A stretch of DNA of 53,133 nt, from positions 1 to 53,133 of the forward strand of contig JBFMDH010000044.1 of NCBI GenBank assembly GCA_040754075.1. The letters run 5' to 3'. Below, piece by piece: positions 8,458 through 38,511 of this stretch (the stretch's first letter is position 1; each line of letters opens with the position of its first letter). Under the pieces are notes generated by a model. That model was not told the origin of the DNA. It worked only from the letters and a program-made list of their open reading frames with translations, and did not search any database. Origin of the DNA: Acidobacteriota bacterium. GTDB taxonomy: Bacteria; Acidobacteriota; Blastocatellia; UBA7656. Position numbers and translations under genes: made by a program.

Positions 8458-8472
8458 ATCATCATCCACGGC

Positions 8473-8516
8473 AAAATAAAAAGGGCGACTCAACAATGAG
8501 TCGCCCTTTTTATTTT
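8473..8516. terminator. perfect 20-bp bidirectional terminator
   Basis: AAAATAAAAAGGGCGACTCA (8473-8492) is repeated exactly as its reverse complement (8497-8516) around a 4-base ACAA loop. The A-rich and T-rich flanks give a U-tract in both directions. It sits between the convergent TolC-family and PilZ-like genes and can end both transcripts. Confidence 0.92.
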
Positions 8517-8534
8517 GCTAAAAATTTGAATTGA

Positions 8535-9522: not shown

Positions 9523-9579
9523 GTGATGGGGAATAAGTGATGAGTGAAATAGCGATGGCTCATCACTCATTCCTCATTG
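9523..9579. repeat. heptamer-arm palindrome A (coxM-coxG gap)
   Basis: The left arm is a run of 7-base units, GTGATGG GGAATAA GTGATGA (9523-9543). The right arm is CTCATCA CTCATTC CTCATTG (9559-9579). 9526-9543 pairs with 9560-9577 over 18 positions with two mismatches, around a 16-base loop. The right arm contains the coxM stop codon (TCA at 9574-9576, read on the minus strand). Confidence 0.75.
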
Positions 9580-16573: not shown

Positions 16574-16584
16574 ATTTCCGTATT

Positions 16585-16683
16585 TTGTGCTTTGTGCTTC
16601 GTGCTTGGTCTATTGAATACGCCGGTGAATACGGTAAATAAAGACCAGGCACGAAGTACCAGGCACAAAGTACAAATTACTAC
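16585..16683. repeat. heptamer-arm palindrome D abutting the PhnP-like start codon
   Basis: Left arm: TTGTGCT TTGTGCT TCGTGCT TGGTCTA (16585-16612). Right arm: AGACCAG GCACGAA GTACCAG GCACAAA GTACAAA TTACTAC (16642-16683). The arms are complementary over about 28 bases with few mismatches, around a loop of about 30 bases. The last heptamer touches the ATG at 16684. The units are related to those of palindrome G. Confidence 0.8.
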
Positions 16684-19808: not shown

Positions 19809-19882
19809 TTCACCGCAGAGAACGTAGAGAATGCGCAGCGATGCTTCAAACTTTGGGTAATCTCTGTGTCCTCTGCGGTGAA
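19809..19882. repeat. palindrome E with 9-base units
   Basis: TTCACCGCAGAGAACGTAGAGA (19809-19830) is matched at 19861-19882 by its near reverse complement: 22 positions, three mismatches, 30-base loop. The left side continues as roughly 9-base units, GCAGAGAAC GTAGAGAAT GCGCAGCGA. It lies in the gap between the cupin and SDR genes, both on the plus strand. Confidence 0.8.
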
Positions 19883-33397: not shown

Positions 33398-33574
33398 ATG
33401 TTCAATTTGCTTCTCACAATTATCATCATCGTTTTGGATGTCATCGCTATCAGCAATGTGCTGAAATCGCGTCACGATAATTTCACCAAAGCGGTGTTAA
33501 TTGTTCTTATACTATTTTTCCCGTTTATTGGCGCGGGCGTCTATTTGTTGGTCTTCCGCGATAAGGGATATTGA
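33398..33574 (+). CDS. PLDc_N-like two-helix membrane protein
   Basis: The 58 residues form two transmembrane helices (about 2-20 and 32-53) with the phrase FFPFIGAGVYLLVFRDKGY, as in the phospholipase D N-terminal (PLDc_N) module found alone in many bacteria. AAGGAG lies 11 bases before ATG 33398. Upstream in-frame starts are not supported. Function of the stand-alone form is unknown. Confidence 0.75.
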   Translation: MFNLLLTIIIIVLDVIAISNVLKSRHDNFTKAVLIVLILFFPFIGAGVYLLVFRDKGY

Positions 33575-33581
33575 TTCGCTA

Positions 33582-33651
33582 AATCGTCAGGAGAGCAAAT
33601 TCGCCAAGCGGGTTATTAAATATTTTTGGCGAATTTGGCGTCCTGACGATT
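33582..33651. repeat. two-part palindrome between convergent genes
   Basis: AATCGTCAGGA (33582-33592) pairs with TCCTGACGATT (33641-33651). Inside, AAATTCGCCAA (33597-33607) pairs with TTGGCGAATTT (33626-33636), giving two perfect 11-bp stems around an 18-base loop. There is no long T-tract, so it is either a terminator of unusual form or a dispersed palindrome. It fills the gap between the PLDc_N-like and PfkB genes. Confidence 0.75.
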
Positions 33652-33656
33652 CAGGA

Positions 33657-34714
<1,058 letters not shown>

Positions 34715-34716
34715 AT

Positions 34717-35400
34717 TTATTGTCCAACCGCATTGTTGGTATAGAGCCGGATTTCGACGCGGCGATTTTGCATGCGCCCTTCTTTGGTTGAATTGTCTGC
34801 AACCGGACGGCTCACGCCAAAACCGATGATCGAAATGCGAAACAGCGGGATGTTATGTTTTTCGGCAAGGTATCGCTTCACCACTTCCGAACGCATATTG
34901 CTCAGTTGTTCATTGAGTTCCATTTTACCTTCCGATGAAGCAAAGCCTTGAACTTCGAGCAGGTAGCCGTTTTTGCTTTTGATTTGCGAAGCCAATTCAT
35001 CGAGCGCCGCCATCGCTTCGGGCAGGAGTTCGGCTTTGTTGGCTTCAAAGAGCACCGTCACATTTTTTTGCAGGGTGTATTTATCGAGGTTGGTGCGTAA
35101 ATCATCGACATTTTTTTCAACCCCGGCGACGCGGGTGTTGGCTTGTTCGGCAGCCGATGCAGCGCGGTCAGCCTGTTCCTGCGCGCGGTCTGTGCGTTGT
35201 TTCAAATCTTCGACATCGCGGGAAATGCGACTGATTTCCTGCGTATTGCGACGCGACGTTTCTTCCAATTCGCCCGTGCGATTTTCGAGCGGTGCAGCGC
35301 GTTCATTGACGCGATTGCGAACATATTTTTTGGTGGCGCAGGCATTCACAAATAACAATGCAAAAAAAACTGCGACCAGAAGCAGCGCTTTTGATTTCAT
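34717..35400 (-). CDS. OmpA-family peptidoglycan-binding lipoprotein
   Basis: This 227-residue lipoprotein has signal LLFVNAC (Cys at about 21). A coiled-coil of about 75 residues follows (NERAAPLENRTGELEETSRR and DLKQRTDRAQEQADRAASAA), then an OmpA-like C-terminal domain (about 115-222: NVTVLFEANKAELLPEA, VQGFASSEGKMELNEQLSNM, GFGVSRPVADNSTKEGRMQNRRVEI). It is anchored in the outer membrane and likely ties it to peptidoglycan. ATG 35400 is preferred for its spacing to CGGAG; ATG 35412 is in frame and would add four residues. Confidence 0.92.
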   Translation of the reverse strand: MKSKALLLVAVFFALLFVNACATKKYVRNRVNERAAPLENRTGELEETSRRNTQEISRISRDVEDLKQRTDRAQEQADRAASAAEQANTRVAGVEKNVDDLRTNLDKYTLQKNVTVLFEANKAELLPEAMAALDELASQIKSKNGYLLEVQGFASSEGKMELNEQLSNMRSEVVKRYLAEKHNIPLFRISIIGFGVSRPVADNSTKEGRMQNRRVEIRLYTNNAVGQ

Positions 35401-35557
35401 AAAGAATCCCATCTCCGTTTTACTAGATTGATTTTTTCATTGAGGCAAATGCGGCAATTATTCCGACACGGGCTTGTAAGGTGCGTTTGCCGTTGAATCT
35501 CACAGTCAATTATACTTTTTGATTGCAAGCTAAGTTTTTACACCAGGAGTCAAGACA

Positions 35558-36337
35558 TTGGCAAGAAACATTTCAGCCCTTATTTTATCGGCAATTTTGC
35601 TGTTTTCATCGTTGACCACGGCAACCCGGAGAGGCAACGACTGCACCGCGCCTGAATTGATTTGCAAAGCCGCCGCCAATCAAGACCGTTCGCTCTATGT
35701 GCGTGACCGTTGTCGTTATGAACAGAAAATTCGCGTTGAACGATTTAAATTAAAAGACGGCAAAGAGCAATATGACGAGATACGCGAAACCACAGTGGTC
35801 GTGCAACCGCAAATGCAACCCGATAAAACCGGCAAAATTCCGGTTGATGTGCAGGTCGTCGAAGACACCGATAAAAAAGGTAATCCCAAAGACCGCATCA
35901 ATCCCGAAGAGAAAACTTTGTTATCATTTGGCGCGGTTTGGGATTTGGCATTCTTCCCGCTGCTCCCGGAAAAGTTGCAGTTTTACAATTACCAGGAAGT
36001 TGTCGCTGAGCGGAAAAGCGAAAAATGGTATCGCTTTATTCCCAAGCCCGAAGTTTTAGACCAACCGCTTGCCGCAGGCGTTGTGATGTTAGACCCGGCG
36101 ACCGGCGAGGTGCTGACCATCAAAATCGAATCGCTTCATAACCTCAATGTCCTGGATAAAAACGCCGCCAAACTGCGAACTTTTTACGCGACCATTGATT
36201 ATTCACAATTTGAAGGGGCGCTGCGAATCCCGACCCTCGCATCAGGTGGCGGCGTATCAGAGATTCCCAAATTCGGCGGCAATTTCCGCTTTAAATTCGC
36301 CGAAGGCAAATACCGACCCGTGGCAAAGATTGATTAA
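35558..36337 (+). CDS. exported protein of unknown function
   Basis: The 259-residue product starts at TTG 35558, preceded by CAGGAG at good spacing. A signal peptide covers about 1-23 (ALILSAILLFSSLTTA). The mature part holds two early cysteines (NDCTAPELIC), a third in RDRCRYEQK, and beta-rich sequence (RVERFKLKDGKEQYDEIRE, FYNYQEVVAERKSEKWYRF). It resembles outer-membrane-associated acidobacterial-type hypotheticals but I cannot name a family. It lies upstream of uvrC on the same strand, with palindrome G between them. Confidence 0.75.
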   Translation: MARNISALILSAILLFSSLTTATRRGNDCTAPELICKAAANQDRSLYVRDRCRYEQKIRVERFKLKDGKEQYDEIRETTVVVQPQMQPDKTGKIPVDVQVVEDTDKKGNPKDRINPEEKTLLSFGAVWDLAFFPLLPEKLQFYNYQEVVAERKSEKWYRFIPKPEVLDQPLAAGVVMLDPATGEVLTIKIESLHNLNVLDKNAAKLRTFYATIDYSQFEGALRIPTLASGGGVSEIPKFGGNFRFKFAEGKYRPVAKID

Positions 36338-36340
36338 AAT

Positions 36341-36422
36341 TTGTACTTTGAACTTCGTGCTTTGTAGTTCGTTATGGGAGCCAGTAAAGCACAAAGTACA
36401 AAGTACAAAGTACAAAGTACAA
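36341..36422. repeat. heptamer-arm palindrome G abutting the uvrC start codon
   Basis: Left arm: TTGTACT TTGAACT TCGTGCT TTGTAGT TCG (36341-36371). Right arm: AAGCACA followed by four exact AAGTACA (36387-36421). The arms pair over about 28 bases with four mismatches, around a short loop. It begins four bases after the stop codon of the preceding gene and ends one base before the uvrC ATG (36423). Confidence 0.9.
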
Positions 36423-38264
36423 ATGACCCTTTCAGAAAAACTCGCTAACCTGCCAATTCAGCCCGGTTGTTACATCTATCGCGATGAACGCAATAAAATA
36501 CTCTATGTCGGTAAGGCGAAAAATTTGCGCAATCGGGTGCGCCAGTATTTTCAAAACTCGCGCCATCACGACGCTAAAACCAATGAACTGGTTTCGCGCA
36601 TCGCCGATTTGGAATTGATTGTCGTAGATAACGAAATCGAAGCCCTGGCGCTCGAATGCAATCTCATTAAAAAACACCGCCCACCTTTCAACATCATGTT
36701 GAAAGACGACAAACAATACCCGCACATTAAAATCACCAATGAACGCGCGCCCCGCGCCATCATTGCTCGTAAAATTTTAAAAGACGGCTCGCGTTATTTC
36801 GGACCTTTCTTGCCGCCGTCGCTTGCCTATCAAACGCTCGACATCATCAATCGCAATTTTCAATTGCGCACCTGCACTATGGAGATTGATGGCAAAGCCG
36901 ACCGCCCCTGTCTTGAATACCATATCAAACGTTGCTTGGGTCCTTGTGTGAAAGACCTCTGCACCATCGAACATTACAACGAAGCGGTGCAGGACGTTGA
37001 ACTATTGCTCGAAGGCAAAACCGCTGCGGTTATCGAGACTTTGCAGGAACGCATGATGCGCGCCTCAGACGAAATGCGCTTTGAAGCCGCTGCCCGTTAT
37101 CGAGACCAGTTAAAAGCCCTGTCAAAACTCGGTGAACAACAAAAGATGATGACGGTGTCCGATGATGACATAGACATTTTCGGGTATTACCGCGAATCGC
37201 ATCAGTTGGCGCTTGCGTTGTTTACCATGCGCGAAGGCAAAGTAGTCGGTAAACGCGAATTTTACTGGGAAGACATCCTAGACCCGTTTGACCCCGCGAC
37301 CTTTATTCAACAGGCTTTGAAACAATATTATGCCGGAAGTGATTACGCGCCGGGTGAAGTTCACACACCGGTGGATTTTGAAGACCGCGAATTGCTCGAA
37401 GAATTTTTAACGACGCTACGCGGACGCCGGGTTCGCATCATCTCGCCGCAACGCGGGGTGAAGCGCGATTTGATTGATCTCGTGGAAAAAAATGCGCGCC
37501 TCAATTTCGATCAGCGCTTTCGTGTGCAACGACCCGATATGAGCAAGGTGTTGCAGGAACTTCGCGACGCGCTGGAACTGCCGGAACTGCCTGAGCGCAT
37601 CGAATGCTTTGATATATCGAATATTCAAGGGGATGAAAATGTGGCTTCGATGGTGGTGTGTGTCGATGGTGAGATGAAAAAGAGCGATTACCGCAAATTC
37701 AAAGTCCGTTCGGTCGAAGGCGAGGCAAACGATTTTCAATCCATGTATGAAGTGGTCGGGCGTCGTTACGGTCGGCTGTTGAAAGAAGGGCGACCGATGC
37801 CCAATCTGGTGTTGATTGATGGCGGCAAAGGGCAACTCGCAGCGGCAGCCAGGGCGTTGCACGAACTTGGACTTGAAGCTTTGCCCACGGCGTCGCTTGC
37901 GAAAAAAGAGGAGTTGTTATTTGTGAAAGGTCGCAGCGAGCCGGTGCGCATCGACCATCATTCACCGGTGTTGCATCTGGTACAGAAGATTCGCGATGAG
38001 GCGCATCGGTTCGCCGTCACCTATCATCGCAAGCGCCGGGCGATGCGCGATTTTCAATCGGAACTGACTTCGATACCGGGCGTCGGTGAAAAATTGAAAG
38101 AGCGATTGCTGCGCAATTTCGGCAGTTTAAAGCGCGTATCGGAGGCAAGCTTTGCCGAACTTCGCCCCTTCGTCGGCGAAACCCAGGCACAGCGTATCGT
38201 CGAACATTTCGAGAACCTGCAAAAACAAATCGCTGAAGAACAACGCGAGTCTGATTTCGAGTAG
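36423..38264 (+). CDS. uvrC: excinuclease ABC subunit C
   Basis: This 613-residue UvrC has an N-terminal GIY-YIG nuclease (PGCYIYRDERNKILYVGKAKNL), a cysteine cluster (RTCTMEIDGKADRPCLEYHIKRCLGPC), a UVR motif (ETLQERMMRASDEMRFEAAA), the RNase H-like 5' nuclease (ECFDISNIQGDENVASMVV, IDGGKGQL) and a C-terminal helix-hairpin-helix pair (LTSIPGVGEKLKERLLRNFG). It makes both incisions around UvrB-bound DNA lesions. ATG 36423 is set by homology; the frame is open upstream through the palindrome but encodes repeat-derived sequence (KVQSTKYKVQ). No Shine-Dalgarno is visible in front of it. Confidence 0.96.
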   Translation: MTLSEKLANLPIQPGCYIYRDERNKILYVGKAKNLRNRVRQYFQNSRHHDAKTNELVSRIADLELIVVDNEIEALALECNLIKKHRPPFNIMLKDDKQYPHIKITNERAPRAIIARKILKDGSRYFGPFLPPSLAYQTLDIINRNFQLRTCTMEIDGKADRPCLEYHIKRCLGPCVKDLCTIEHYNEAVQDVELLLEGKTAAVIETLQERMMRASDEMRFEAAARYRDQLKALSKLGEQQKMMTVSDDDIDIFGYYRESHQLALALFTMREGKVVGKREFYWEDILDPFDPATFIQQALKQYYAGSDYAPGEVHTPVDFEDRELLEEFLTTLRGRRVRIISPQRGVKRDLIDLVEKNARLNFDQRFRVQRPDMSKVLQELRDALELPELPERIECFDISNIQGDENVASMVVCVDGEMKKSDYRKFKVRSVEGEANDFQSMYEVVGRRYGRLLKEGRPMPNLVLIDGGKGQLAAAARALHELGLEALPTASLAKKEELLFVKGRSEPVRIDHHSPVLHLVQKIRDEAHRFAVTYHRKRRAMRDFQSELTSIPGVGEKLKERLLRNFGSLKRVSEASFAELRPFVGETQAQRIVEHFENLQKQIAEEQRESDFE

Positions 38265-38463
38265 ACGGGCAGGGTGTATTTGCCTCTATCTCTAATAGTC
38301 ATACCTAGATATTTATCTGGTAAAAACTTCATTATTGAATTCTAAATTTCTTTAACCCTTTAACAAATTCAACGAAAAAAAGCAGTAAGATACCCGTCTG
38401 TTATTCATTTTCCTACTTGTGTATGTAGTGGCGGATTTTTGCGATTAGCCTATAGTTTGGCAC

Positions 38464-38477
38464 GGAGTTGCAACTCC
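38464..38477. promoter_or_regulatory. perfect 14-bp palindrome upstream of the caspase-like gene
   Basis: GGAGTTGCAACTCC is an exact palindrome lying 34 bases before the ATG at 38512. It sits where a regulator could bind near the transcription start. No clear -35/-10 pair was assigned. Confidence 0.35.
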
Positions 38478-38511
38478 ACGAAAAGAATAAAAAAACAGAG
38501 GAGAAAACAGT

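Follow-up and report, generated by a model that had tools for sequence, protein, structure and literature searches.

The DNA analysed here (the window, 53,133 nucleotides) is one whole contig (C44) of the 7.58-Mb genome of a bacterium of the Acidobacteriota, class Blastocatellia (genome G000). It carries a uvrC gene whose nearest protein relatives also belong to the Blastocatellia (Acidobacteriota), and the whole gap between the stop codon of the co-directional upstream gene and the start of uvrC is filled by a palindrome built of tandem heptamers. The features of this region, together with further palindromes of the window, are given below; IVP stands for the 23S rRNA-intervening-sequence protein (PF05635).

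9526..9577, no strand: short GTGATGA-type palindrome (arm match to IVP locus L247, score 16)
16580..16680, no strand: second palindrome of the AAGTACA/AAGCACA family, between co-directional genes (inverted-repeat and family search)
33657-34589, minus strand: pfkB-family gene (gene call and domain search)
34590..34713, no strand: AGTAGGC palindrome next to the pfkB-family gene, touching its start codon (arm match to IVP locus L215, score 23)
35612..36337, plus strand: co-directional gene before uvrC, 241 aa when read from the called start (gene call; the longest open reading frame runs from TTG 35558)
36335..36337, plus strand: stop codon of the upstream gene (from the sequence)
36339..36424, no strand: AAGTACA palindrome, most likely a gene-less (empty) IVP-type element (inverted-repeat search, fold, and arm match to IVP locus L134)
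36339..36366, no strand: left (5′) arm, GTACTTT-type units read on the plus strand (inverted-repeat search)
36394..36421, plus strand: right (3′) arm, four exact AAGTACA units (exact heptamer search)
36423..38264, plus strand: uvrC, 613 aa (UvrC domain matches and relatives)

The four exact AAGTACA units lie on the plus strand at 36394, 36401, 36408 and 36415; the last one ends at 36421, and a single A (36422) separates the array from the uvrC ATG at 36423. A sequence-only reading of this DNA had placed the array at the same positions and had proposed that it pairs with an opposite arm in a stem of about 28 bp, and our search recovered this stem as 28-nt arms that are 89% complementary (36339-36366 and 36397-36424, loop 30 nt), with 34-nt arms of 85% complementarity (36339-36372 and 36391-36424) as the alternative. 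The extent of the element was corrected to 36339-36424, so that it begins one base past the stop codon and reaches into the ATG. The arms have a period of 7 (lag identity 0.81), and Tandem Repeats Finder gave the array at 36386-36423 a score of 69, the top of 23 rows in the window. The leader RNA (36320-36460) folds at -37 kcal/mol with a z score of -3.54, and none of 200 dinucleotide shuffles was as stable. Further AAGTACA copies in the window are at 36342-36348 (minus strand, in the opposite arm) and 16668-16674 (plus strand); by count alone the heptamer is unimpressive in the window, with 6 occurrences against 2.3 expected and as many in 4 of 100 shuffles. A scan of 33500-38500 against Rfam returned no family at gathering level; the weaker matches were all to eukaryotic microRNA models and fell far short of the gathering scores of these.

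The sequence-only reading had also drawn attention to the lack of a GGAG-like site before uvrC, and the 20 nt preceding the ATG indeed hold no AGGA, GGAG, GAGG or AGGT. Since a Shine-Dalgarno-like 4-mer precedes just 113 of the 278 called genes that encode 150 aa or more, this lack is ordinary and does not mark uvrC out. Among relatives, G003, G004 and G007 (which has no palindrome there) likewise lack such a site before uvrC, and G001 has AGGA. ATG 36423 is the start that UvrC proteins conserve, most relatives aligning with the protein from residue 1 onwards. The upstream gene, which had no Pfam match, adjoins uvrC also in G001, G003, G004 and G007.

Inverted arrays, mainly of period 7, fill stop-to-start gaps throughout this Blastocatellia genome and some of its relatives. 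In 446 kb of G000 we found 38 hairpins with arms of at least 20 nt (16 of period 7, 3 of period 8 and 19 without a period), and three dinucleotide shuffles per stretch yielded 12 hairpins in all, with period 7 absent. When intergenic arrays of periods 4 to 12 were collected, 31 of 35 had period 7; inside genes there were eight more, three of period 7. In the six palindrome-bearing genomes, with genes called by our own gene caller and gaps of 60 nt or more considered, a palindrome of period 7 or 8 was present in 31 of 252 gaps between co-directional genes, in 6 of 55 between convergent and in 5 of 65 between divergent ones; neither G002 nor G007 had any. Often the palindromes span the whole distance between the stop and the start codon, and the stop codon itself forms the beginning of several arrays.

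The arms of these palindromes are oriented. Among 74 period-7 palindromes of the six genomes, 16 exact units were found more than once and each kept one polarity, and the 5′ arm was the G-rich one in 64 cases against 8 (38 against 25 for hairpins without a period). The same bias was seen in the IVP loci described below (57 against 6). A telomere-like healing of ends, an idea prompted by this bias, was dropped after the link to IVP had emerged; the bias itself stands. A period of 7 may also put stop codons into every reading frame.

The AAGTACA arrays are tandem heptamers, intergenic and present at multiple loci, as in STRR-like dispersed repeats. Genome-wide, this family comprised 19 loci, grouped by hand: 13 palindromes, 1 locus with an IVP gene and 5 one-sided matches, at least two of which show a weak second arm by eye. 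Fourteen of the 16 loci with both neighbours called sit between co-directional genes, and the polarity was the same in all 14 two-armed loci. Comparison by eye showed no loop or interior conserved within a family.

Other repeats were noted alongside. The stretch L117:13551-13621 (contig C2 of G000) belongs to a palindrome around GTTCAGAGTTACGC/GCGTAACTCTGAAC that occurs at more than 15 places in G001; in G000 it is enclosed by heptamer arrays. Nested palindromes at L117:7556-7681 (with perfect 50-nt arms), L125:19569-19720 and L128:3021-3171 have inner and outer arms of different units and look like one element inside another. The window also holds, at 8471-8518, a perfect 22-bp hairpin with a 4-nt loop and a T-rich 3′ arm, terminator-like and between two convergent called genes, and, at 19809-19882, a palindrome TTCACCGCAGAG.../...CTCTGCGGTGAA that belongs to a repeat class of lower regularity (period 9 at 0.54 in the arms).

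The AAGTACA locus that bears a gene is L134 (G000:C35:16580-17059), where arms in two successive gaps enclose a reading frame that encodes a PF05635 protein (E 6e-26). A second case, L114 in G013, was spotted by eye. A PF05635 profile search of 58 genomes found the family in 40 of them, with 13 copies in G000. For Acidobacteriota, 72 IVP loci were assembled: 30 from the search, 40 from among the matches listed (chosen with their flanks still unseen) and, as discovery loci, L134 and L114. A locus was taken as positive if the inverted match between its 500-600 nt flanks scored at least 13, with a best period of 6-10 and a lag identity of at least 0.6. By this measure, IVP genes lay between inverted arrays at 65 of the 72 loci (51 of period 7, 9 of period 8 and 5 of period 9). 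None of 94 same-size control genes passed, 9 reaching the score alone and none having such a period. The failing Acidobacteriota loci were L216, L223, L231, L235, L241, L259 and L262, three of which have degenerate arrays just under the thresholds. IVP genes were also flanked in genomes where a single stretch of 18.5-20 kb showed no palindrome, among them G017 and G031. That G031 has 14 IVP genes and yet no palindrome in its one 18.5-kb stretch counts against the link between IVP and gene-less copies.

In other phyla, arrays flank IVP genes at 29 of 34 loci: 3 of 4 on cyanobacterial plasmids, 23 of 23 in Chloroflexota (six genomes), 3 of 3 in Bacteroidota (one genome) and 0 of 4 in Bacillota (L295, L296, L297 and L303). 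In the test on Chloroflexota, Bacteroidota and Bacillota, 0 of 90 shuffled flanks passed. The array-less genes of Bacillota perhaps represent another life style of the family. The idea that array-less IVP genes are rRNA insertions was rejected, no Rfam rRNA match having appeared in the 8 of 12 such loci scanned, which include the Bacillota four. Searches for IVP relatives in phage records found none, and five pattern hits in viral contigs could not be confirmed.

The enclosed genes have a preferred position. The upstream neighbour was on the IVP strand at 60 of the 61 loci where one was called, and an arm lay within 25 nt of the upstream stop codon at 50 of 60 loci; the downstream neighbour was on either strand (27 same, 30 opposite). 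The cyanobacterial L285, whose upstream gene lies on the other strand, is an exception to this orientation rule. The arms hold 3-5 units at 48 of the 65 loci.

A separate observation concerns two cyanobacterial plasmids with a type I-D CRISPR operon, in which the junction of cas6 and cas4 is occupied by an IVP gene flanked by inverted heptamer arms (L284:1995-2354, NZ_CP112875.1; L286:1977-2345, NC_019429.1). The junction is the same in both, and the units are different (AGCTTTT and ACAGGTG, respectively).

Repeat period and unit follow the IVP tree, though imperfectly. For the period, 6 changes suffice on a tree of 65 IVP proteins, against a shuffled mean of 13.4 (0 of 200 shuffles as low), and period 8 alone needs 2 against 8.6. 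With other phyla added, in a tree with many unresolved forks from which one long-branched row was left out, the period needs 10 changes against 19.9 (again 0 of 200 as low). Period 9 alone is unclustered, 57 of 500 shuffles being as low on the 65-protein tree and 500 of 500 on the tree with other phyla. Three octamer copies of Chloroflexota fall in the octamer clade of Acidobacteriota, and three (L308, L314 and L319) fall outside it. Between genomes, arms were shared in 14 of 77 comparisons of proteins at least 55% identical, in 6 of 208 at 45-55% and in 33 of 1682 below 45%; when arm similarity was set against IVP identity, none of 2000 permutations reached the observed mean. At the level of the exact unit the link is loose: L261, L250 and L251, whose proteins are closest to that of L134 (66-76% identical), have other heptamers. 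Two full copies in G003, L254 and L256, are 94.9% identical over 447 nt including the arms, with no other similarity within 700 nt.

The uvrC palindrome has no PF05635 gene between its arms, its loop being only 30 nt, and it was thus filed as an empty relative of the full element. Its arms match those of L134, the IVP-bearing element of the same genome, with a score of 22 and in the same polarity, a connection beyond the view of the sequence-only reading; of the 19 AAGTACA loci in G000, L134 alone carries the gene. The same holds more widely. Palindromes matching an IVP arm of their own genome numbered 17 of 38 in G000, 5 of 10 in G001, 13 of 28 in G003, 2 of 3 in G009 and 5 of 6 in G013; size-matched sets of foreign IVP arms matched 1-12% of palindromes on average, and matches of opposite polarity were absent from all six genomes. 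None of the 12 palindromes of G004 matched, with 2 of its 6 IVP copies compared, and 21 of the 38 in G000 matched no arm, with 10 of its 13 IVP copies compared.

The gap before uvrC holds a palindrome in four genera, each with its own unit: AAGTACA in G000, and AGGACTA, GACTCCA and AACCCCC in G001, G003 and G004, respectively. The gap before the neighbouring pfkB-family gene is also filled in all four, with AGTAGGC in G000 and GTCCGTT, an octamer and AAAGCAG in the others. In G007, of the same order, both gaps are present and neither has a period-7 palindrome. That an element may have replaced the native leader of uvrC, as the sequence-only reading had put it, is therefore borne out in so far as a dispersed repeat occupies the entire leader and three sister genera hold a palindrome of another unit there; what does not stand is any special relation to uvrC, many other stop-to-start gaps being filled likewise.

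One could suppose instead that an intercistronic hairpin before uvrC is itself selected, for attenuation, processing or translational control, with its sequence drifting, and that the arrays beside IVP genes are regulatory in the same way. All four genera that have the gene pair do keep palindromes before uvrC and the pfkB-family gene, the uvrC leader fold is unusually stable (z -3.54), and across orthologous gaps presence is associated (18 both, 15 one, 47 neither; pooled odds ratio 19, from pairs that are not independent). Single genome pairs, however, give only p 0.03-0.2, and the units differ wholly between genera, yet are common to other loci of the same genome. The palindrome-free gap of G007 also speaks against selection, as do other orthologous gaps in which an element faces a tight junction (93 versus 9 nt; 406 versus -4 nt), differences that show gain or loss of elements. 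Taken together, the gap pattern agrees no less well with repeated insertion into permissive junctions than with a conserved hairpin, and we consider the selected hairpin improbable. No target-site duplication was readable in the gaps compared, in which the relatives are strongly diverged.

A somewhat better, though still unlikely, alternative is that these are simple repeats without a helper, in which polymerase slippage builds the heptamers, hairpin-templated copying mirrors the second arm, and IVP tolerates or collects the result. Slippage is among the sources proposed for heptamer repeats, as cited in the excerpted text of PMC4679880, and several properties of the arrays agree with it: in the 74 period-7 palindromes, unit variants across the two arms were mirrored in 368 cases, swapped in 88 and otherwise arranged in 22, the number of units varies, and the loops are unique to each locus. 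Against it stand the flanking of IVP genes (65 of 72 against 0 of 94 controls), found even in genomes without palindromes in the stretch seen, as well as the sharing of units by loci within one genome, the association of arrays with the IVP protein tree and the near-identical full copies L254 and L256 at two places.

Movement by a Y1 (RAYT) or other DNA transposase, as for REP/BIME-like or MITE-like elements, seems least probable, with only a very slight chance of being right. The palindromes are dispersed and extragenic, and G000 has 5 Y1 genes; but arrays occur near only 1 of these 5 loci, the interior is not conserved, and abundance did not go with the Y1/RAYT gene among the genomes compared, element-rich genomes having 4-11 Y1 copies and genomes without palindromes in the stretches seen having 0-14. 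A reverse transcriptase (PF00078) was rejected as well: none was above threshold in the element-rich G001 and G006, and six matches were found in G002, which had no period-7 palindrome in 40 kb at the detector setting used. Loss of SbcD as the reason why the palindromes survive was also dismissed. SbcD was above the cut-off in 3 of 19 genomes (G013, G002 and G017) and is not discriminating, since it is present in the element-rich G013 and also in G002 and G017, which had no palindrome at that setting.

The closest known system is the intervening sequence (IVS) of 23S rRNA with its S23/IVP reading frame, which, as described in excerpts of PMC4990558, likewise has a PF05635-type gene inside terminal inverted repeats that form a long stem. 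The IVS is transcribed in sense with the host RNA (PMC4990558), as the IVP genes here lie in sense just behind an upstream stop codon, and it is called a selfish element whose 28 bp terminal stem is cut by RNase III. That cutting was demonstrated for the IVS (same source), whereas here it would be a proposal by analogy. Unlike the IVS, the elements described here occupy gaps between protein genes and not 23S rRNA, and the uvrC palindrome likewise lies between a protein gene and uvrC; each of their arms is built of tandem 7-9 nt units, which vary between copies, and gene-less copies are common.

The TAACTGA arrays of Beggiatoaceae, cyanobacteria and Bacteroidetes also have a period of 7, are intergenic, often abut start codons and are accompanied by few Shine-Dalgarno sites; PMC4679880 describes them mainly as direct repeats and without a partner gene, whereas the arrays here form inverted pairs that go with IVP genes. 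Heptamer arms were seen at three IVP genes of cyanobacterial plasmids, so that some of these repeats may be the same thing. The cyanobacterial STRR are heptamer repeats of the same kind as the TAACTGA arrays, and for the heptamer repeats of bacterial gaps we know of no agreed origin.

REP, BIME and REPIN sequences with their RAYT genes, in the excerpted account of PMC3733652, are similarly dispersed extragenic palindromes that depend on a helper gene elsewhere, but the AAGTACA arms have neither the fixed palindrome nor the GTAG or CGTC tag described there. A single GTAG does occur at the inner end of the left uvrC arm (36364-36367). The helper proposed here would be IVP rather than a Y1 transposase. 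In MITEs, gene-less copies share their ends with a gene-bearing copy, as they do here; in the present elements, however, the interior is not conserved (by eye), no transposase was found, and no target-site duplication was seen between the diverged relatives.

Given these data, the most likely explanation, to which as a whole we give a probability of about 0.78, is that the element in front of uvrC belongs, as a gene-less and non-autonomous copy, to a class of dispersed IVP elements. Members of this class would be bounded by inverted arrays of short period (mostly 7 nt, sometimes 8 or 9), and in their full form they would enclose a single IVP gene. The PDB relatives of IVP, 2gsc (E 1e-38) and 2rld (8e-16), have five chains each, and the Xanthomonas protein is a homopentamer of four-helix bundles (PMC4990558, in excerpt). 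Going by these structures, by the selfish IVS and by the association of arms and gene, an IVP oligomer may bind the repeat units in its own arms, as hairpin RNA or as single-stranded DNA. It would then promote the spread of its own element and, in trans, of gene-less copies into stop-to-start junctions, mainly co-directional ones. The AAGTACA family would have taken the uvrC junction in this genome, other families having taken the same junction in sister genera.

As for uvrC itself, the hairpin, if it acts at all, would be a processing or pausing site between two genes. An intercistronic hairpin of this kind could be cut by a double-strand-specific RNase, leaving a nearly leaderless uvrC message, and it is probably tolerated there rather than being a dedicated switch.

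The rRNA IVS elements, the heptamer repeats and the oligomeric IVP protein are already known separately, and the function of the IVP/S23/"four helix bundle" proteins is stated as not known in the excerpts of PMC4990558. In the literature searched, the scope of which excluded preprints and most subscription journals, we recognised no paper linking IVP genes to heptamer arrays and found no statement that repeat unit and IVP protein vary together. More tentatively, and with somewhat less than even odds, IVP proteins may be the specificity factors of minimal mobile elements across phyla, which would have neither a transposase nor a reverse transcriptase themselves. Each IVP oligomer would read its own 7-, 8- or 9-nt repeat, perhaps with one unit per protomer of a pentamer (the arms holding 3-5 units at 48 of 65 loci), and protein and repeat would spread jointly and in trans into stop-to-start junctions.

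If this is true, many orphan genes for "four helix bundle" proteins would form a single system with the heptamer repeats found in cyanobacteria and other phyla, each being one half of it. Should arms and protein indeed belong together, the likely binding site of each IVP could be read from its own flanks, and dozens of natural protein-repeat pairs would make the specificity testable. It would also account for intergenic hairpins that persist from one sister genus to another although their sequence is entirely replaced, and it would be a warning against taking such leaders as regulatory RNAs of the following gene. The IVP family and an old class of bacterial repeats would thereby gain one shared, testable explanation.
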